NCBI GenBank assembly: GCA_904420555.1
Contig: CAJFVO010000004.1
Location: 1-64,000, forward strand
DNA from: Candidatus Heritagella intestinalis
GTDB lineage: Bacteria > Bacillota > Clostridia > Oscillospirales > Acutalibacteraceae
DNA: 64,000 bases
Direction of reading: 5' to 3'
This document shows positions 25,734 to 35,510 of the stretch, piece by piece (within the stretch, counting starts at the first letter, position 1; every line of letters starts with the position of its first letter). Both the position numbers and the translations under genes were made by a program. Under the pieces are notes generated by a model, which had not been told where the DNA came from, did not search any database, and worked only from the letters and a program-made list of their open reading frames with translations.

Positions 25734-26321
25734 ATGAAAAAACTGAGTAAAAGCCAGCAGAAAATATATGATTTCTTAAAGGAGAAGGCCCAATATGGCG
25801 TCCCGCCCTCGGTGCGGGAGATTTGCGCCGCTACCGGACTGAAATCCACCTCCACAGTCCACGCGCATTTGCGCAGCTTGGAGGAAATGGGATATATTTC
25901 CCGTCAGGCCGGGATGAACCGCTCCATCCATATTGAGGGGACCGAGGAGACGACCCAGGTGCCCATCCTGGGCCGGGTTACCGCCGGGCTGCCCGTTTTG
26001 GCCATTGAGGAAGTCCAGGGCTACCTGCCCTATTCTGCCCGCCATGCCGCGGGGAAAGAGCTGTTTGCCCTCCACGTGGACGGCATGAGCATGAAGAATG
26101 CGGGGATCCTGGACGGGGACTATGTCATTGCGGAAAGGACCCCCACTGCCGATGACGGCGCGATTGTCGTGGCCCTCATTGAGGACGAGGCCACGGTGAA
26201 GCGGCTGTATCGGGAAAAGGACACCATTCGTTTACAGCCGGAAAATCCGGATTTCGAGCCTATCTATTCCCAGAATGTGTCCGTCTTGGGGAAAGTGGTC
26301 GCTGTTTTGCGCTATTATTAA
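25734..26321 (+). CDS. lexA: LexA SOS repressor
   Basis: Represses DNA damage genes and self-cleaves when stimulated by RecA filaments. Winged helix at 1-65 (KSQQKIYDFLKEKAQYGVPPSVREICAATGLKSTSTVHAHL), cleavage site VTAGLP between A84 and G85, catalytic S119 (DGMSM) and K156 (ATVKRL). 195 residues, normal. RBS AGGAGGCAGAG. Promoter has a matching box, so it is autoregulated. Confidence 0.97.
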   Translation: MKKLSKSQQKIYDFLKEKAQYGVPPSVREICAATGLKSTSTVHAHLRSLEEMGYISRQAGMNRSIHIEGTEETTQVPILGRVTAGLPVLAIEEVQGYLPYSARHAAGKELFALHVDGMSMKNAGILDGDYVIAERTPTADDGAIVVALIEDEATVKRLYREKDTIRLQPENPDFEPIYSQNVSVLGKVVAVLRYY

Positions 26322-26400
26322 ACCATAGCGGCAAAACGGTTGCGGCGGCTTTTCCCACGGCAGGGCGATCCCCGACCCGGAAAAGCCCAGTATTTTTGCG

Positions 26401-26440
26401 AATTCCCGCCTGCCAGCCGCAGTGCGGGAATTTTTATTTT
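26401..26440 (+). terminator. Intrinsic terminator of lexA
   Basis: AATTCCCGC (26401-26409) pairs with GCGGGAATT (26424-26432), followed by TTTATTTT. Confidence 0.85.
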
Positions 26441-26600: not shown

Positions 26601-28403
26601 ATGCGGATATGCAGATTTTGTGGAGCGGAGATCAAGGAAGGGAGCCGGTGCCCGGTTTGCGGGCTGGAAAATTCCGGGGAGGCCCGGCGGGACGACAGCC
26701 TGTTCCGCCGGCCGGAATTCCAGCCCCAGCCGTCGGAAGAAGAGCTCCCAAAGGACATAGAGGAGGAAGAGGGGGAGTCGGTGTTTTCCCGGGCCCTGCA
26801 GTGGCAGCCGGAAGAGCCGGAGCCCCAGCCCTCCCAGCCGGCTTCTGAGCCCCAGACAGAAGGGGCGCAGCCAGAGAGCGGGCAGGCAGAATTTCAGGCT
26901 TTCTTCCCGGAAGAGGCGGACCCGCCCCGGACCCCACCGCGCCATTGGGCCCGTATGGCTGCTATAGCGGCGTCGGTGCTGGTGGTGGCAGCCGCAGCCT
27001 TTTTCCTGTGGCCCAGGCCCCAGCCCCAGGCGGAGATGCCGGCCATCTTTTCCGCCGGGGAGTCCTATCAGGTTTTCTTTCCGGGAAAACAGGAGGAAGC
27101 CTTGGAGTTGGGAACGGGGCTTTCGGAGTACGACTACAGCCAGGACGGCCAGCAGTATGCCTGGATTGCGGATAACCAGCTGTTTTATCAGCCTTCCCCC
27201 ACAGCGGAGCCGGTATTCCTGGCCGAGAGAGCCGTGGACTGTATGATGCGCCCAGAGGGGGACGTGGTGTACTATCTGTCCTACGACACGGAAGCCGAAC
27301 CTGCTTCCCAGACCCTGTACCGCTATGACGCGTCTACTGGGGAAACGGAATCCCTTCTTTCCGGCTTGTATGGGGTGTGGGTCCGGAAGTTCAAGGAGGA
27401 AGCGCCCTACTGCTTTTTGATAGAGTCCAGCTCCGTTCTCCGGCTGGATTTGGAAACCGGGGAAGTATTGCCGGTGGTGCAGAATATTGCTTCCGGGACG
27501 GCTTATATTGTCACGTCGGACGACCAGGGGCTCTACTATACGGACGTTAATCAGGAAAGAAAGATCAGCCGCTTACGGTATTGGACGCCGGAGGACGGTT
27601 CCCAGAACATTGCGGAGAATATGGACATTATCGTCAACGCGGATAACGGAAACGCGTATTATACTATTTCGGAAAGCAGCGGGGAGCCGGGGCTTTATTG
27701 GCTGGAACATGGGGAGAGCACCCTGGTGGACGCCAGTGTTCCACAGAATATTGTGGGCTTTCTCCAAGACGGGGAGTATTCCGCCGAAAGGGCAGACGGC
27801 CTGCTGTATGTAAAGGACGATGACCCGGAAGGGAATCTGTATATGGCCCTTGGGGGAAAATCCTATGAGCTGCCCATGACTTCGGAAACTTACCAAGGGG
27901 TGTTCCTCCGGGACAACCGGCTGTATTACCTGATGGACGGCACCGTGTGGTTTATGGAGATCACCGAAGAGGGGCTCGGCCAGCCGGTGGAGAAGGAAAC
28001 CGCTCCGGAAACGGCCTCCGGCCTGGTGATGGTGGACCGCTGGGGCAACAGCCTTTTTAGCTGGGATAGCATGGTCGCCCGGTCTCTCACCTATGGCGGG
28101 CAGACGGTAACCCAGGCTTTGTATGAAGCTTCCGGCGCTGCCATTCAACAGGCAGAGGACGGCAGCCTGTACTTCCTGGACGGCATGGGTTCTCCCTCGC
28201 TGGTGCGGCTGCAAAACGGCCAGGCGCAGACGGTGGCGGAAAATGTCCTGGATTTCCGGGTGGACGGCGACTGGGTGATCTACATCCAGGAACCCCTGCC
28301 TTCCCAGGAGGATATCAGCACCACAGCGGTGATGGCTTATGATGGCCGGCATACGCCGGTGGTAATAGCGGAGACGGATTCCCAGGTTTCCTTCTATTTT
28401 TGA
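26601..28403 (+). CDS. Zinc-ribbon / single-TM / beta-propeller-like protein, paralogue 1
   Basis: First of four tandem paralogues. ATG 26601 follows GAAAGGGGAAAAA. Zinc ribbon: C4-x2-C7 and C17-x2-C20 (ICRFCGAEIKEGSRCPVCG). An acidic, Pro/Gln-rich cytoplasmic linker (about 25-112) contains the motif FSRALQWQPEE (62-72). TM about 118-137, then WPRPQPQ. The extracytoplasmic region (about 140-600) is built of short beta-rich repeats with Y/W-x-Asp turns (SEYDYSQDGQQYAWIADNQLFY, QTLYRYDASTGETESLLSG, GLYWLEHGESTLVD), resembling TolB/DUF5050-type propellers. 600 residues. The topology puts a metal-binding ribbon inside and a propeller outside, as in a sensor or scaffold. Function unknown. Confidence 0.8.
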   Translation: MRICRFCGAEIKEGSRCPVCGLENSGEARRDDSLFRRPEFQPQPSEEELPKDIEEEEGESVFSRALQWQPEEPEPQPSQPASEPQTEGAQPESGQAEFQAFFPEEADPPRTPPRHWARMAAIAASVLVVAAAAFFLWPRPQPQAEMPAIFSAGESYQVFFPGKQEEALELGTGLSEYDYSQDGQQYAWIADNQLFYQPSPTAEPVFLAERAVDCMMRPEGDVVYYLSYDTEAEPASQTLYRYDASTGETESLLSGLYGVWVRKFKEEAPYCFLIESSSVLRLDLETGEVLPVVQNIASGTAYIVTSDDQGLYYTDVNQERKISRLRYWTPEDGSQNIAENMDIIVNADNGNAYYTISESSGEPGLYWLEHGESTLVDASVPQNIVGFLQDGEYSAERADGLLYVKDDDPEGNLYMALGGKSYELPMTSETYQGVFLRDNRLYYLMDGTVWFMEITEEGLGQPVEKETAPETASGLVMVDRWGNSLFSWDSMVARSLTYGGQTVTQALYEASGAAIQQAEDGSLYFLDGMGSPSLVRLQNGQAQTVAENVLDFRVDGDWVIYIQEPLPSQEDISTTAVMAYDGRHTPVVIAETDSQVSFYF

Positions 28404-28450
28404 GTACGATACATCTGGGAAAATAGAATGAATGAAAGGGGATGCGGTTT

Positions 28451-30115
28451 ATGGTGCGTACCTGTCAGGTAGAAGAAGTCAAAGAAGAGGTTGTTGGTAA
28501 TTGGGAAGTGGAGAAGGAAGAGCCAATTGCCCATTCGGCGCCGGACGCGCCCCGGCGGTGGCGGACCTGGCAGCGGCTGACGGCTGCTGCTGTGGTGGTA
28601 CTGGCCATTCTTTTTGCGGTGGGAGCCGTTTTTTTCTTCCTGGCCCGGGAACCAGAGGAGACCCATCAGGAACCCCTGTACTTCACGAAAAAAGGGCAGC
28701 TTTGGGCCCTGCTTCCTCAGGAGACAGCGCCTTTGGAGCTGGGCCGTTCGGATATTGTCCGGGTAACGGTGATGGAGAGCCGGGATAACACCCGGTTTGC
28801 CTGGTATGACGGCGTTGGCCTTTATTATCGTAAAGCGGATGCGAAAGAGGCGGAGGAAGTCCAGCGGGACGTCCGGGCGGCGGCCTTGTCCCCTTCCGGG
28901 AATTCCCTGCTCTATTATGTCTATGTGAACGAGGAGAGCGGGGGCAAGCTCTGCCGGTATGATGGGAATTCCGGAGAGGTGCAGGAGCTGCTTACCGGGC
29001 TGGGGAACCTGCAATATTCCGTCATCAGCCAGGACGGCGCCTATTGGGCCCTCCAAGTGGGGGATGTGCTGCTCTGGGCCAATGTGGAGACCGGGGAAAT
29101 CCAGCAGGCAGCCTCGGGTTTATTAGATGGCCAGATGCGGATACGGGCCGTTAGCAGTCGGGGCGTGTATTATGACGTGCTTTCTTCCGCAGGCCAGAAC
29201 CTCTACGATTTGATGCACTGGCGGCCCGGGGGTTCCCCGGAGCGGGAGCTGGCCAGCGTCCAGTCCCTGTCTTTGGATGAGGACGGCCAGGGGTATGGGG
29301 TCTGTGATTCCGAAGCATCCAGCAGCCTCTATTGGTTTGACGGAGAAACCGCTTCTTTAGTAGACAGCCAAGTGGACGCCAGTTACTTGCGGATACTGGG
29401 GAACTGGGATTCCGCCCAAAGGATGAAGGCAGAGGTGGCTGTTTACCGCCGCAGCGGCGAAGACCAGCTCTATGCGGCCAACCGGGGGAAATCCGGCCCC
29501 TTGTCCCAGGAGGTTCCTTCTGGGGAGCTTTTAGACGACCCTATAGGCGGGACGCCTTTGCCGGACGTGATTCTGGAAGGGAACAGCCTTTACTGTATGA
29601 CCGGGGAATTCCGGGGTGACGGAGAGGTTTGGCGGGTGCCCTTGGAATGGAACGGCCCGGGAAGTCCCGAAAAATTGGAGAGCTTCCCCGCCTCTCAGGA
29701 GACTTGGAAATTTTATGTAACCTCTGCCGGGGACGTACTGCGCTGCGGTTCCAGCCGGGAAGAGGGAGAGCGGGGGAGCTTCTGCTCCCTGTATTGGAAC
29801 GGGGAACAGGCGGCGGACGACCTGTATCTTTGGGGCGGCCTGCCTTACCAGCTCTTTGAGTATCAGGGGGCGGTGTACTACATGGGGAAAGGCCGGGACC
29901 AGGGCTTTTCTATGAAGCGCATCCAGAAGGGCGTTTCGGAAATGGTGGACGATACAGTGGAGGATTGCCGTCCTATGGAGGATGGACGGTTGGCTTATCT
30001 GCGTACAGGGGAAGGGGAAACCCAAGACCTGTTGGTGATGGGCCCGGATGGAAAGCCGCAGTTGGCGGCAGAAGCAGTGGACGTCGTCCTGGGATGGAGC
30101 CACGTGGTTTATTGA
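28451..30115 (+). CDS. Single-TM / beta-propeller-like protein, paralogue 2 (lacks the zinc ribbon)
   Basis: Second paralogue, 47 bp after the first. ATG 28451 is chosen because an earlier in-frame ATG (28442) touches the GAAAGGGG site. Unlike its neighbours it has no Cys-x2-Cys ribbon and no FSxALxW motif; the N-terminus is a 40-residue acidic segment (VEEVKEEVVGNWEVEKEE) before TM about 44-64. The ectodomain (70-554) shares the LYWFDGETASLVD motif and repeated tryptophan/tyrosine beta strands with the others. Loss of the ribbon suggests division of labour, such as hetero-oligomers in which only some subunits carry the cytoplasmic module. Confidence 0.75.
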   Translation: MVRTCQVEEVKEEVVGNWEVEKEEPIAHSAPDAPRRWRTWQRLTAAAVVVLAILFAVGAVFFFLAREPEETHQEPLYFTKKGQLWALLPQETAPLELGRSDIVRVTVMESRDNTRFAWYDGVGLYYRKADAKEAEEVQRDVRAAALSPSGNSLLYYVYVNEESGGKLCRYDGNSGEVQELLTGLGNLQYSVISQDGAYWALQVGDVLLWANVETGEIQQAASGLLDGQMRIRAVSSRGVYYDVLSSAGQNLYDLMHWRPGGSPERELASVQSLSLDEDGQGYGVCDSEASSSLYWFDGETASLVDSQVDASYLRILGNWDSAQRMKAEVAVYRRSGEDQLYAANRGKSGPLSQEVPSGELLDDPIGGTPLPDVILEGNSLYCMTGEFRGDGEVWRVPLEWNGPGSPEKLESFPASQETWKFYVTSAGDVLRCGSSREEGERGSFCSLYWNGEQAADDLYLWGGLPYQLFEYQGAVYYMGKGRDQGFSMKRIQKGVSEMVDDTVEDCRPMEDGRLAYLRTGEGETQDLLVMGPDGKPQLAAEAVDVVLGWSHVVY

Positions 30116-30167
30116 GGCAGTGACAAAAGCCGGGAGCGTTTTCGCGATGGAGAGAGGATGTGCGGGC

Positions 30168-32462
30168 ATGGAGAGGAACTGTCAATTTTGCGGGAAACCT
30201 TTAGATAAAGAGGGCAGATGCCTCTTCTGCGGGCGGGAAGCCGAGGAAAAGGTTGCGGAAGAAGCCGAAGAATCGGAGTTTTCCCGGGCGCTGCACTGGG
30301 AACTCCCGGAGGAACCTGAATCTCCTCAAAAAGCGGAGGCCCCGGTGGAGGAAGGACCCACGGCAAAGAAAATGGGCTGGAAGAAATGGCAGAAGGCCGT
30401 GGCGGCGGTTCTGGTGCTGGCTTTCCTGGCGGGGATGACCTGGTTTTTGTGGCCCCGGCCCCAGCCAGTTTTACCGGCGGTGACCTTTACAAAGGATGGA
30501 AGCATCTGGATGTTCCGTCCGGGAGAAGAACAGAACTTACAGGAAATAGGGGATTCAAAAAACTTGAAAAACCTCTCCGTGGAGGAGGACGGGAGCCTCC
30601 TTTGGGGAGAAAACACCCTGTGGTATCTTGGACTGGAAGCCGAAGAGGCCCGGCAGGTTGAAGAGAGGCAGGGGCAGATTTGGGATCGTGACCTTTCCCC
30701 TGACGGGAAGCGGCTGGTGTATCTGTTCTATCCCGGGGAAGCGACGGAGGGAGAGCTTGATATCAGTCAGGCAGAGCTGTGGTGCTTTTCCATAGAAACC
30801 GGGGAGAAACACAAGCTGGCACAGGGAGAGACCACCTACCGCTTTAGCGCGGAAGGTTCCGCCTTAGCCTTTACTTCCCCGGACGGGTTGTATTTTTTGC
30901 CGGAGGATTCCTGGGAGGCGGAAAAAGCCGGGGAGCCCGGGGATATCCGGCTGCAAGCGGTGGATGAAGATTCCGTGCTCTATCTGGTGGTAAAAGACCT
31001 GAAAAAGGCCCAAATGCAGTGGAAGCGGGGAGGCCAGCCGGAAGTTCTCATGGAGAATGTGGATAGGGAGAGGATCATGCCGGATGGCACCGGTTATCTC
31101 TTGGCCTACTCCAAGGAAATCACGCTGTGGGATACGATAAGGGACGATTATGCCCAGGCGGACAGCACCGGCAACCCCTTGGATAGCTATGACCTCCGGT
31201 CGGTGGAGGGGCTGCGCTGGACCCTGGACGGCGGGGAAGAATCCTTCACCACGCAGAAAAATGAGGGGGCTATTTCCATTAGCATGGAAGCAGGGGGCTC
31301 TGTAGAATATGTAGACCCTATCAGCGTGTATTATACAGGAAACCAGCATGTCTTTGCGGAAGAAGACGGGCTTTTCCGGATGGTTTCCCAGGGCGAGGAC
31401 GATAATGGTTCCTGGACCCAGAGCTATCAGGTGCAGGCCGGGGAGGACGGCCGCCTGTGCATGGTAGTGAAGCGGGAAATCAAAGGGAAACCGGCGCAAA
31501 CCAACGCCATGGGGCCGGCGCCCGGGGTGTACCACACCGATGCCCCCTTGCCCGAGGCCCCCTGTATTGGCAGGAACCGGGTGCGGGAGAGCCTGAAAAA
31601 AGCCACTATCCATTCCCCTTGTTCTGATTTGTATTGGTTTGACGGGGAGACCCTCCAGCTGGTGAAGAAAGAGGCGGATGTTAGGTCCATGGATTTTGGC
31701 CCAGGTACGATTCCCGATAAATCTATAGATGGAGATCTCTCCGATGGCCAGCTGATTTACGGCCCCGGGGTGACGGTACGCTCGTTGTTTTCCAGCTGCC
31801 TGTCCATTATGGGGGATTCCCAGGAAGCAGGTGAGGAAATTTCCCCGGAAGATTGGAAATTGTACCTCAATACCTCCCGGACTGCCCCCAAGCCGGGAAG
31901 TCCCCGGTATCTGCTGGTGCAGGGGCAGAAATACCTCCTGCCGGAATCCCTGTGGGAAGTATCCATGAGGAGCTGTGGATTCTCGCAAAATACCCTGTAC
32001 TATACCCTGGAAGGCGATGGCTCGGAGGAAGAAGGCTTGACCCTCTATGCTTCCACCCTGGAAAATGGGGAAACGCAGGAGCCGGTAGAGGTGGAGACCC
32101 AGGTGAAGGATTTCCGGATCGCCCCGGATGGGCAGATTTTGACCCGGCGTACTGGCGGCTCTTACTGCGACGGGAATTTTTTGGACCGGAATACCCGTAT
32201 AGACCGGCTTTTGTACAGCCCTGACGGCGGCGTGTATTATTTTGCCGGAAAAGCGGGAAACCACTTGTGCCGCGTTGTCAACGGGGAAGGGCAGAGCATC
32301 GCGGAGGATGTTTATAAGGTTTGGCCCATCAGCCAGGATTACGTGGCTTTTACCACCAAAGAAGTTGGGGAAGACAAAATGGACCTGATGGTTTATAATG
32401 GAGTCGGAGCCCCAAAAATAGTTGCGGAAGATATTACTACGCTGCCGGTTCCGGGGGAATAA
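30168..32462 (+). CDS. Zinc-ribbon / single-TM / beta-propeller-like protein, paralogue 3
   Basis: Third and longest paralogue (764 residues), 52 bp after the second. Preferred start ATG 30168 (MERNCQFCG) behind GAGAGG; an ATG at 30147 is an alternative. Ribbon C5-x2-C8 and C18-x2-C21; motif FSRALHWELPEE (38-49); TM about 77-94 then WPRPQP. The ectodomain has LYWFDGETLQLVKKEAD, and carries an additional loop-rich segment around residues 380-500 not obvious in the others. Clearly homologous by layout and motifs. Terminator follows. Confidence 0.8.
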   Translation: MERNCQFCGKPLDKEGRCLFCGREAEEKVAEEAEESEFSRALHWELPEEPESPQKAEAPVEEGPTAKKMGWKKWQKAVAAVLVLAFLAGMTWFLWPRPQPVLPAVTFTKDGSIWMFRPGEEQNLQEIGDSKNLKNLSVEEDGSLLWGENTLWYLGLEAEEARQVEERQGQIWDRDLSPDGKRLVYLFYPGEATEGELDISQAELWCFSIETGEKHKLAQGETTYRFSAEGSALAFTSPDGLYFLPEDSWEAEKAGEPGDIRLQAVDEDSVLYLVVKDLKKAQMQWKRGGQPEVLMENVDRERIMPDGTGYLLAYSKEITLWDTIRDDYAQADSTGNPLDSYDLRSVEGLRWTLDGGEESFTTQKNEGAISISMEAGGSVEYVDPISVYYTGNQHVFAEEDGLFRMVSQGEDDNGSWTQSYQVQAGEDGRLCMVVKREIKGKPAQTNAMGPAPGVYHTDAPLPEAPCIGRNRVRESLKKATIHSPCSDLYWFDGETLQLVKKEADVRSMDFGPGTIPDKSIDGDLSDGQLIYGPGVTVRSLFSSCLSIMGDSQEAGEEISPEDWKLYLNTSRTAPKPGSPRYLLVQGQKYLLPESLWEVSMRSCGFSQNTLYYTLEGDGSEEEGLTLYASTLENGETQEPVEVETQVKDFRIAPDGQILTRRTGGSYCDGNFLDRNTRIDRLLYSPDGGVYYFAGKAGNHLCRVVNGEGQSIAEDVYKVWPISQDYVAFTTKEVGEDKMDLMVYNGVGAPKIVAEDITTLPVPGE

Positions 32463-32481
32463 CCCCGGCGCGGGCCGAAGG

Positions 32482-32513
32482 GCGGGGAGCTCTCAAGGGG
32501 CTTCCCGCTTTTT
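32482..32513 (+). terminator. Intrinsic terminator between paralogues 3 and 4
   Basis: GCGGGGAGC (32482-32490) pairs with GGCTTCCCGC (32499-32508), then TTTTT. Paralogue 4 may therefore have separate or reduced expression. Confidence 0.7.
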
Positions 32514-32566
32514 GTTTTCCGCTTTTGTGATAAAACCCAAGGCTCTTGCAGAAAGGAGCGATGCCA

Positions 32567-34519
32567 ATGGCAGAGAAGTGCAGGTTTTGTGGAAGGGAGA
32601 TGGAAGAGGGGGCGGCGGCGTGCCCCTTCTGCGGCAAACAGGCGGAAAGCCAGGAGGCGCTTTTCCGCCGGCCGGGCGCCGGGAAAGGGGAGTCTCCGGG
32701 AGAAGAATCGGAATTTTCCCAGGCGCTGCGCTGGCAGCCGGAGGAAACGCCGGAGCCTCCTGTGGAAGAGCCACCGGCAGAGGAGCCGGAGCCGCCGAAA
32801 AAGCTGCCCTGGCGGCGCTGGCAGAAAATTGCCGCTGCCCTGTGCGGGGTGCTTTTGCTGGCCGGGGCGGCGTGGTTCTGGTGGCCAAAACCCTCCAACC
32901 TGCCCCAAACCCCGGTACTTTTCTCCCGGGAGGGGCAGATGATGGCGTTTCTGCCCGGGCAGGAAGGGGAGAAGTTTCCCCTGCGGGGTTCGGCGGACAC
33001 AGAGGACGCCTTATACCGGTACAGCCCCGACGGCCAGCGGTATCTCCGGTATGACTTGGCCCTAAACAACCTGTTCCTGGGCGTCTTTGGCGGGGAAGAG
33101 GAGCAAATTGCCGGGGACGTCCGGGGGTATTCCTTTAGCCGGGACAGCCAGCGGGTGTTTTTTATCTATGATTCAGGCGATGATATTTATGATCCGGAAT
33201 CGGCGGCGCTGTACCGCTATGAGATTTCCACCGGGGAATCCCAGAGGCTGATGACCGGGGTAGCCTCCTACCGGATGAACCAGGACGGCACCCTGCTGGT
33301 GGACCGGATGAACCAGCCCATCCTGCTGCTGGACCCGGACACCGGGGAAACCTGGGAGACGGGGGCGTTCCGGAACCAGCTGTTGGCCTTTCCGGAGAAC
33401 GGCGGCCCTTTGTACTACACGGTTCCCCAAGAGGTGGGGCGCAATGTGGTGCGCTGGACCCGGGACGGCGGGGAAGAAACCATCCTGAAAGGGGTGGGGC
33501 CAGTGTATCTGAACCCCGACGGCACCGGCTATTACGGCCAGATTCGCAAGACCATTTCCCTGTTGGACCTGGTCCAGGAGGAGTCTTTGGCGGAAGCGGA
33601 CGCTTACCCGGAGCTTTACCAGAGGATGAAGGACATCCAGGTGCCCTCCCCCTGCTGCGATTTGTACTGGTTTGATGGGGAGGAAAGCACCCTGATTGTC
33701 CGGGAGGCCGCCTTTTCCCAGCTGACCTTTTTACAGGACGAGGCCGGGGACGGGAAGATTTCCGGCTGCCTGTACCGGCCGGGAACCCAGAAGCGGGTGT
33801 ATTCGCTGCCGCAGATTGCGGAACAATACGGGTTGGAAGAGTTGGATGGCCTTCGGCAGGAGGTGTGCCAGTGGCCCTTCTTTCGAGAAGGCACCCAGGA
33901 AGCAGAGGGGAGCAGCCAATTTGCGGCGGTGGGGCCCAGAAGTTTTTCCATCGAGACCGACGGGGAAGACCCGCAAAATGCCGGGCTTTATGGGGATACC
34001 CTCTATCTTCTCACCGGCCCGGTGGCCGTGCAGGGGGAGCTTTGGCGGATGAATTTGGCGGATGCTTCCCCCAAGCCGGAAAAGATGGCGGAGAATGTCT
34101 ATCGGTTCTGGCTTGCCGGGGAAGAGGGGGTTCTCTACCGCCAGGCGGAGACCCCCTGGGAAAAATCCGCCCTGTATTACAATGGGGAACTGGCGGCAGA
34201 GCTGCCGCCCCTTTCGGGAGACCAGGGCGAGGGGGTTTCCATGGAAATTACCGAAGATGGCGGCGTATACTATCTCCGTGACGCCCAGGGAGGCGGCTCT
34301 ACCCTGTGTACCCTGCAAAACGGCCAGGAAGTGACCCTTTCCCGGAATGTGGCGTCCTTTGTCCCCCTGTCTCGGGACTATGCCCTGTTCCTGCGGGAGG
34401 AGAAGGACGGATCCCGGACCCTGATGGCTTGGCGGAGCCAGGGCGGCCTGCTGCCGGTGGCGGACCAGGTGGAGGATTTCTATTACCGGGAGGAGCCCCT
34501 TACCGGCCTGTTGTGGTAA
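32567..34519 (+). CDS. Zinc-ribbon / single-TM / beta-propeller-like protein, paralogue 4
   Basis: Fourth paralogue, 650 residues. ATG 32567 stands 8 bp after GGAG; an in-frame ATG at 32561 is too close. Ribbon C5-x2-C8 and C19-x2-C22 (KCRFCGREMEEGAAACPFCG); motif FSQALRWQPEE (50-60); TM about 88-106; ectodomain with LYWFDGEESTLIVREA and repeats such as ALYRYEISTGESQRLMTG, closely matching the same repeat of paralogue 1. It lies 67 bp upstream of cysK with no terminator seen between them, so some readthrough into cysK is possible. Confidence 0.8.
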   Translation: MAEKCRFCGREMEEGAAACPFCGKQAESQEALFRRPGAGKGESPGEESEFSQALRWQPEETPEPPVEEPPAEEPEPPKKLPWRRWQKIAAALCGVLLLAGAAWFWWPKPSNLPQTPVLFSREGQMMAFLPGQEGEKFPLRGSADTEDALYRYSPDGQRYLRYDLALNNLFLGVFGGEEEQIAGDVRGYSFSRDSQRVFFIYDSGDDIYDPESAALYRYEISTGESQRLMTGVASYRMNQDGTLLVDRMNQPILLLDPDTGETWETGAFRNQLLAFPENGGPLYYTVPQEVGRNVVRWTRDGGEETILKGVGPVYLNPDGTGYYGQIRKTISLLDLVQEESLAEADAYPELYQRMKDIQVPSPCCDLYWFDGEESTLIVREAAFSQLTFLQDEAGDGKISGCLYRPGTQKRVYSLPQIAEQYGLEELDGLRQEVCQWPFFREGTQEAEGSSQFAAVGPRSFSIETDGEDPQNAGLYGDTLYLLTGPVAVQGELWRMNLADASPKPEKMAENVYRFWLAGEEGVLYRQAETPWEKSALYYNGELAAELPPLSGDQGEGVSMEITEDGGVYYLRDAQGGGSTLCTLQNGQEVTLSRNVASFVPLSRDYALFLREEKDGSRTLMAWRSQGGLLPVADQVEDFYYREEPLTGLLW

Positions 34520-34586: not shown

Positions 34587-35510
34587 ATGATGTATCAAAG
34601 TATTCCGGAGTTGATCGGCAACACCCCCCTGTTGGAGCTGGGGCGGTACAGCCGGGCCGTGGGGCTTTCCACCCCGCTGGCGGCCAAGCTGGAAGCCTTT
34701 AATCCGGCGGGAAGCGTGAAAGACCGGGTGGGTTTGGGTCTCATCCTGGACGCGGAGGAAAAGGGCCTGCTTCATCCCGGCTCGGTGATTGTGGAGCCCA
34801 CCAGCGGCAATACGGGCATTGGCCTGGCCTGTGTGGCGGCCTCCCGGGGCTATCGGGTGATTCTCACCATGCCGGAGACCATGAGCTTGGAGCGCCGCAA
34901 GCTGCTGGCGGCCTATGGGGCGGAGCTGGTGCTCACCCCGGGCAGCCAGGGAATGCAGGGGGCTGTAGACCGGGCCAAGGCGCTGGTGGAGGAAATCCCC
35001 GGGGCGTTTTTGGCCGGGCAGTTTGACAACCCCGCCAACCCCCAGGCTCACTACCGTACCACCGGCCCGGAAATCTGGAAGGACACCGACGGGAAAGTGG
35101 AAATCTTTGTGGCCGGGGTGGGCACCGGCGGCACCCTCAGCGGCGTGGGGCGCTATCTCAAGGAGCAGAACCCCCAGGTGAAGGTGGTCGGCGTGGAGCC
35201 AGCGGATTCCCCCCTGCTTTCCCAGGGCAAGGCCGGCCCCCACGGGATTCAGGGCATCGGGGCCAACTTTGTCCCCAAGAACTTTGACCCTGCCATTTGC
35301 GATGAGATTCTGCCGGTAAACACCCAGGACGCCATCCAGGCCGCCAAAGAGCTGGCCCGGCAGGAAGGCTATCTGGCGGGAATCTCTTCCGGCGCGGCTC
35401 TGTGGGCGGCGGTGCAGGTGGCCCGCCGGCCGGAAAATCAGGGGAAACTCGTGACGGTGCTTTTGCCGGACACCGGCGAGCGGTATCTCTCCACCGCCCT
35501 GTTTGATTGA
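34587..35510 (+). CDS. cysK: Cysteine synthase (O-acetylserine sulfhydrylase)
   Basis: PLP enzyme joining sulfide to O-acetylserine to make cysteine in the cytosol. Schiff-base lysine in NPAGSVKDRVG (K45), substrate loop TSGNTG (about 73-78), PLP phosphate loop GVGTGGTLSG (about 180-189) and the C-terminal SGAALWAA. 307 residues, standard. RBS GGAAAGGAGA. No cysE beside it. Confidence 0.95.
   Translation: MMYQSIPELIGNTPLLELGRYSRAVGLSTPLAAKLEAFNPAGSVKDRVGLGLILDAEEKGLLHPGSVIVEPTSGNTGIGLACVAASRGYRVILTMPETMSLERRKLLAAYGAELVLTPGSQGMQGAVDRAKALVEEIPGAFLAGQFDNPANPQAHYRTTGPEIWKDTDGKVEIFVAGVGTGGTLSGVGRYLKEQNPQVKVVGVEPADSPLLSQGKAGPHGIQGIGANFVPKNFDPAICDEILPVNTQDAIQAAKELARQEGYLAGISSGAALWAAVQVARRPENQGKLVTVLLPDTGERYLSTALFD

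Follow-up and report, generated by a model that had tools for sequence, protein, structure and literature searches.

A tandem array of four putative membrane-anchored beta-propeller proteins in Candidatus Heritagella intestinalis and its relatives in Clostridia

Among described proteins, the TcaA-like zinc-ribbon proteins of Firmicutes, which we take to consist of a cytoplasmic ribbon, one transmembrane (TM) helix and a large extracytoplasmic part, share the layout of the proteins analyzed here; the fold of their ectodomains presumably differs from the propeller of the array. A second point of comparison is DUF5050 (PF16472), a domain to which no function is attached and which spans only part of our ectodomains. 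The TsgL protein of the T7SSg secretion system is a beta-propeller of this kind (PMC11217815). Our literature search on the ribbon/TM/propeller architecture returned nothing relevant beyond TsgL, and no function for the family. Here we analyzed four genes within a 64,000-nucleotide stretch of Candidatus Heritagella intestinalis (contig CAJFVO010000004.1, positions 1 to 64,000; hereafter the window). Their propeller fold is predicted, and gene 1 scored above the DUF5050 gathering cut-off of 27 (33.1 bits), whereas gene 2 fell below it (20.1 bits) and genes 3 and 4 gave no match. The resemblance to TsgL raises the idea that the array encodes scaffold or gate parts of an envelope or secretion machine. 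This appears highly improbable: a search of the genome for the T7SS protein EssC gave nothing above cut-off, the one partial match being FtsK-like and lying in a 917-aa frame, and no secretion genes were recognised near the arrays examined. A role as a T7SS component was rejected because EssC was not found.

The four genes lie on the + strand of contig C4, in a genome of 2.2 Mb, between lexA and cysK, and are separated by successive gaps of 38, 52 and 104 bp (Table 1). They are paralogues over their length, with 24-28% identity and pairwise E values of 5e-27 to 6e-34 (BLASTP against gene 4: 6e-34, 5e-27 and 6e-34 for genes 1 to 3, respectively), and the homology between genes 2 and 4 extends from the TM helix to near the C-terminus. 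These results bear out a preliminary description of this DNA, which had reported four consecutive genes of one architecture at the same coordinates. Genes 1-4 are the only copies in this genome. The phylogenetic tree places the four in one cluster, although weakly supported (76/69). In the same tree, the copies of one congener (G002), three in number, cluster with G001 and with copy b of G003 (G003_b). Two hairpins had been overlooked earlier, a strong terminator 3' of lexA and another, terminator-like, between genes 3 and 4; because of the latter, gene 4 may be transcribed apart from genes 1-3. Elsewhere in the window, the sole Rfam match was an L10 ribosomal leader (RF00557, 46199-46366).

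Table 1. Features of the array and its flanks, with positions in the window
Feature	Position	Strand	Basis or description
lexA	25734-26321		Named from its own sequence
Terminator hairpin 3' of lexA	26399..26435	+	Fold -21.6 kcal/mol, z -5.11
Gene 1 (P0001, 600 aa)	26601..28403	+	Ribbon, linker, TM, propeller; DUF5050 above Pfam cut-off
Zinc ribbon, gene 1	26610..26663	+	Sequence; weak Zn_Ribbon_1 match, E 0.026
Motif DDSLFRRP, gene 1	26691..26714	+	Alignment with congeners
Motif FSRALQW, gene 1	26784..26804	+	Alignment
TM helix, gene 1	26955..27011	+	Hydropathy
Gene 2 (P0002, 557 aa)	28442..30115	+	No ribbon, short acidic N-terminus, TM, propeller
Possible diverged W motif VKEEVVGNW, gene 2	28478..28504	+	Alignments A1 and A2
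TM helix, gene 2	28586..28642	+	Hydropathy
Gene 3 (P0003, 764 aa)	30168..32462	+	Ribbon, linker, TM, propeller with extra segment
Zinc ribbon, gene 3	30180..30230	+	Sequence
Motif FSRALHW, gene 3	30279..30299	+	Alignment
TM helix, gene 3	30396..30452	+	Hydropathy
Extra beta-rich segment, gene 3	31200..31560 (borders approximate)	+	Alignment A2; lower-confidence model
Intrinsic terminator-like hairpin, gap between genes 3 and 4	32478..32514	+	-24.2 kcal/mol, z -3.25, then U-run
Gene 4 (P0004, 650 aa)	32567..34519	+	Ribbon, linker, TM, propeller
Zinc ribbon, gene 4	32579..32632	+	Zn_Ribbon_1 E 0.003, below cut-off
Motif LFRRP (EALFRRP), gene 4	32660..32674	+	Alignment with congeners
Motif FSQALRW, gene 4	32714..32734	+	Alignment; modelled as short low-confidence helix
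TM helix, gene 4	32828..32884	+	Hydropathy; AlphaFold2 model helix residues 84-105
Predicted beta-propeller ectodomain, gene 4 (residues 117-644)	32915..34498	+	AlphaFold2 model and Foldseek PDB matches
cysK	34587-35510		Named from its own sequence

The position of the array between lexA and cysK is not conserved in the genus. Specifically, the propeller genes of G001 and G003 are located between paaK-like and iorA-like genes, and those of G002, which sit at the end of a contig, adjoin paaK. In the window species, a 92% identical paaK is present on another contig (C7) with no array beside it, and cysK of the congeners also lacks one. That the adjacency to lexA might be chance, as suggested earlier, is thus upheld by the location of the genes in congeners and by the terminator that parts lexA from gene 1. 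Control by LexA as part of the SOS response was rejected on account of the same terminator, together with the absence of an excess of SOS-box-like sites.

The inner half of the proteins largely follows the preliminary description. Genes 1, 3 and 4 encode a C-x2-C...C-x2-C ribbon at the N-terminus; gene 2 lacks it, and the 38 bp in front of that gene are too short to hold one. The cysteines and their spacing suggest that the ribbons bind zinc, with scores below Pfam cut-offs here. An acidic, Pro-rich linker (short in gene 2) and a single TM helix with basic residues at its inner side were found in all four proteins. Of the WPRPQP stalk that had been described at the end of the helix, exact copies occur in genes 1 and 3, but gene 4 has WPKPS and gene 2 has none. 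As had been reported, genes 1, 3 and 4 have the cytoplasmic motif FSxALxW in exact form, and its W is invariant in all four; the corresponding peptide of gene 2 is possibly a diverged form. A second cytoplasmic motif, LFRRP in genes 1 and 4, had escaped notice. Inspection of 30 of the 33 pattern matches in this genome revealed one further ORF with it, unrelated to these two genes. The copies of G001 and G002 carry the forms F-x-VE-x-LL-x-W and DD-x-[LM]FR[RP]P, and those of G003 keep the latter type only. Motifs of this kind are retained between species and loci of the genus, but the proposed cytoplasmic peptide is not a general feature, since neither FxxxLxW nor LFRRP was detected in the relatives examined outside the genus.

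The outer half of 450-650 residues is confidently predicted to be a beta-propeller. AlphaFold2 modelled gene 4 from a 31-sequence alignment with a mean pLDDT of 83.8 and a pTM of 0.77, most of the ectodomain reaching at least 90. The roughly 40 strands in series, together with Foldseek matches in the PDB to the propellers of LRP6, tricorn, DPP4 and the nine-bladed eIF3b, point to this fold; because TM-scores were low, at best about 0.47 (TMt), the matches fix no blade number. A sequence search of solved structures gave no significant match. All four array genes have LYW-x-DGE-like strands (LYWLEHGE, LYWFDGE, LYWFDGE and LYWFDGE), in agreement with the preliminary description. In gene 3, model quality is lowered by an additional stretch of roughly 100 residues, overlooked before, which is common to one gene of G003 (gene a of L024) and to G035 (L025). 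Separately, 35 bp in the ectodomains of genes 3 and 4 (31213-31247 versus 33450-33484) share 91% DNA identity, far above the surrounding divergence. As to the side of the membrane, a relative (L066) has an LTGC lipobox in place of the ribbon before the same kind of ectodomain, which puts its propeller outside the membrane. This relative and the basic inner flank of the TM helices suggest that the propellers of the window are also extracytoplasmic, with the N-terminus inside, as had been proposed.

Related proteins are widespread. Profile A2 matched 64 of 398 genomes of the taxonomic family, and profile A4 matched 225 of 391 genomes of the class, many of these matches spanning the ribbon-TM part only. 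In the class-wide search, genes 3 and 4 were matched along their entire length and gene 1 in two segments, by a profile (A4) that itself includes the window genes; a profile built from the window alone (A1) recovered the congeners independently of A4, with E values down to 5e-71. Clostridial ribbon/TM/propeller proteins (e.g., those of G687, G586, G701 and G437) have the same order of parts, with profile matches over most of their length, but unlike the array they are mostly single-copy, scattered and devoid of LFRRP and FxxxLxW. Tandem copies were nevertheless observed in at least ten other genomes, unrelated Clostridia included, as the preliminary description would have predicted: G002 (at least 3), G003, G181, G091, G030 and G310 (2 each), G652 (4 hits), G591 (3), and G689, G586, G498 and G496 (2 each). 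Loci were picked by best match and these counts give no rate. Among the 61 family proteins longer than 380 residues in the fetched loci, including the four of the window, 37 had a ribbon and a TM helix, 19 a TM helix without ribbon, one a lipobox and four no detected TM helix; about a third of the relatives thus lack the ribbon. The array is an expanded, fast-diverging branch of a widespread and functionally unstudied clostridial family rather than a new kind of system. A genome-contig scan with the four window proteins as queries gave no match, and anti-phage defence or a phage origin was rejected (no PADLOC hit, weak PHROGs hits only, no plasmid or phage homologue).

Comparison of the two halves indicated that the inner one (cytoplasmic part plus TM helix) is the more conserved in three species of the genus, with identities of 30-48% versus 22-26% among the window paralogues, 49-57% versus 37-40% among the copies of G002 and 45% versus 25% in G003, the inner figures being inflated by the low-complexity acidic, Pro-rich linker. 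The reverse was observed in G586 and in one pair of G591, so the pattern is not general. Two other tandem pairs showed a contrast between ends and ectodomains. In L066 (G091, contig C1, 5987-9674), two lipoprotein propeller genes are 93.6% identical in DNA over 249 bp at their 5' ends and 84% identical over 509 bp at their 3' ends, with ectodomains only about 44% identical in protein, and a fragment of the downstream gene was duplicated along with them. Likewise, the pair of L027 (G030, contig C316, 53-3232) shares 147 bp of the 5' end at 90% identity and has ectodomains that are 36% identical. Such near-identical 5' ends beside divergent ectodomains would be produced by an outer part that diversifies while its anchor stays constant, or possibly by misassembly of the contigs. 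One may go further and picture a clostridial surface-recognition system in which a constant inner anchor carries docking peptides and the outer propellers diversify by selection, or by exchange of cores between conserved ends as L066 and L027 might illustrate, so that a single cell would have several specificities outside and one connection inside; we regard this as unlikely.

The preliminary description also anticipated a constant partner gene, which did not materialise. Neighbours differ from locus to locus, and those that recur are either ordinary genes with conserved roles of their own or a small protein that combines a coiled coil with a ribbon at its C-terminus. The latter adjoins propeller genes, or lies a few kb from them at most, in G345, G419, G586, G701, G437 and G714, and also in the non-seed genomes G476 and G454; loci with this arrangement include L069, L076, L115, L119, L120 and L129. 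By a rough estimate for a genome of 2.5 Mb, any given pair of genes would fall within 5 kb of each other by chance in about 0.4% of cases. This protein occurs throughout the class (248 of 391 genomes), mostly not adjoining propeller genes, and is best considered a lead rather than a partner. Its proximity, apparently above chance, together with the architecture itself, would suit true transmembrane receptors, in which an outside ligand alters the state of the ribbon or peptide inside and thereby controls a regulator. We find such receptors quite improbable, given that the coil-ribbon protein is far from the propeller genes in most genomes and about 312 kb from the array in this one (G000:C4:345978), and that no kinase or regulator domain was found. 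An assignment as anti-sigma factors (NF052375) was rejected at 18.1 and 15.2 bits against a curated cut-off of 100 bits.

The reading that we prefer, with a probability of roughly 0.5, is that the array encodes extracytoplasmic propellers that are anchored in the membrane, differ in their ligands and optionally carry a cytoplasmic handle for docking or anchoring, and that it was produced by lineage-specific tandem expansion of a DUF5050-like family. The observed paralogues, with their common order of parts and recurrence as arrays, would expose predicted propellers to the envelope or surface, where each copy might bind its own putative ligand (a peptide, glycan or surface protein) through a diverged propeller face. 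The ribbon, DDSLFRRP and FxxxLxW would serve the copies as a handle, by which they dock the same cytoplasmic partner or are held together, and several outer specificities could thereby be joined to one inner connection. Since the wider family can do without this handle, outside binding is taken as primary and signalling as secondary. Of the transmembrane sensing or docking role proposed earlier, the shared architecture and the better conserved inner part within the genus speak in favor, but an obligate sensor is weakened by a ribbon that is dispensable (19 of 61 proteins with a TM helix and no ribbon, and one lipoprotein). On the other hand, the propeller may be all that matters, with ribbon, linker and TM helix serving only to anchor, orient or oligomerise it and no signalling or docking at all. 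We hold this to be possible though somewhat unlikely: the loss of the ribbon in gene 2 and elsewhere, the lipoprotein relative, linker motifs that are not kept beyond the genus and the lack of a constant cytoplasmic partner agree with it, but short motifs are kept among arrays of different species at different loci, and gene 2 has kept the W position despite losing its ribbon.

The family is widespread in Clostridia, many of which are gut bacteria. If it is true that outer propellers diversify on a constant anchor, this would represent an unrecognised way to vary what these bacteria bind. The docking idea is open to direct test through the peptides specific to the genus, and the array is of interest as a possible surface-recognition set.
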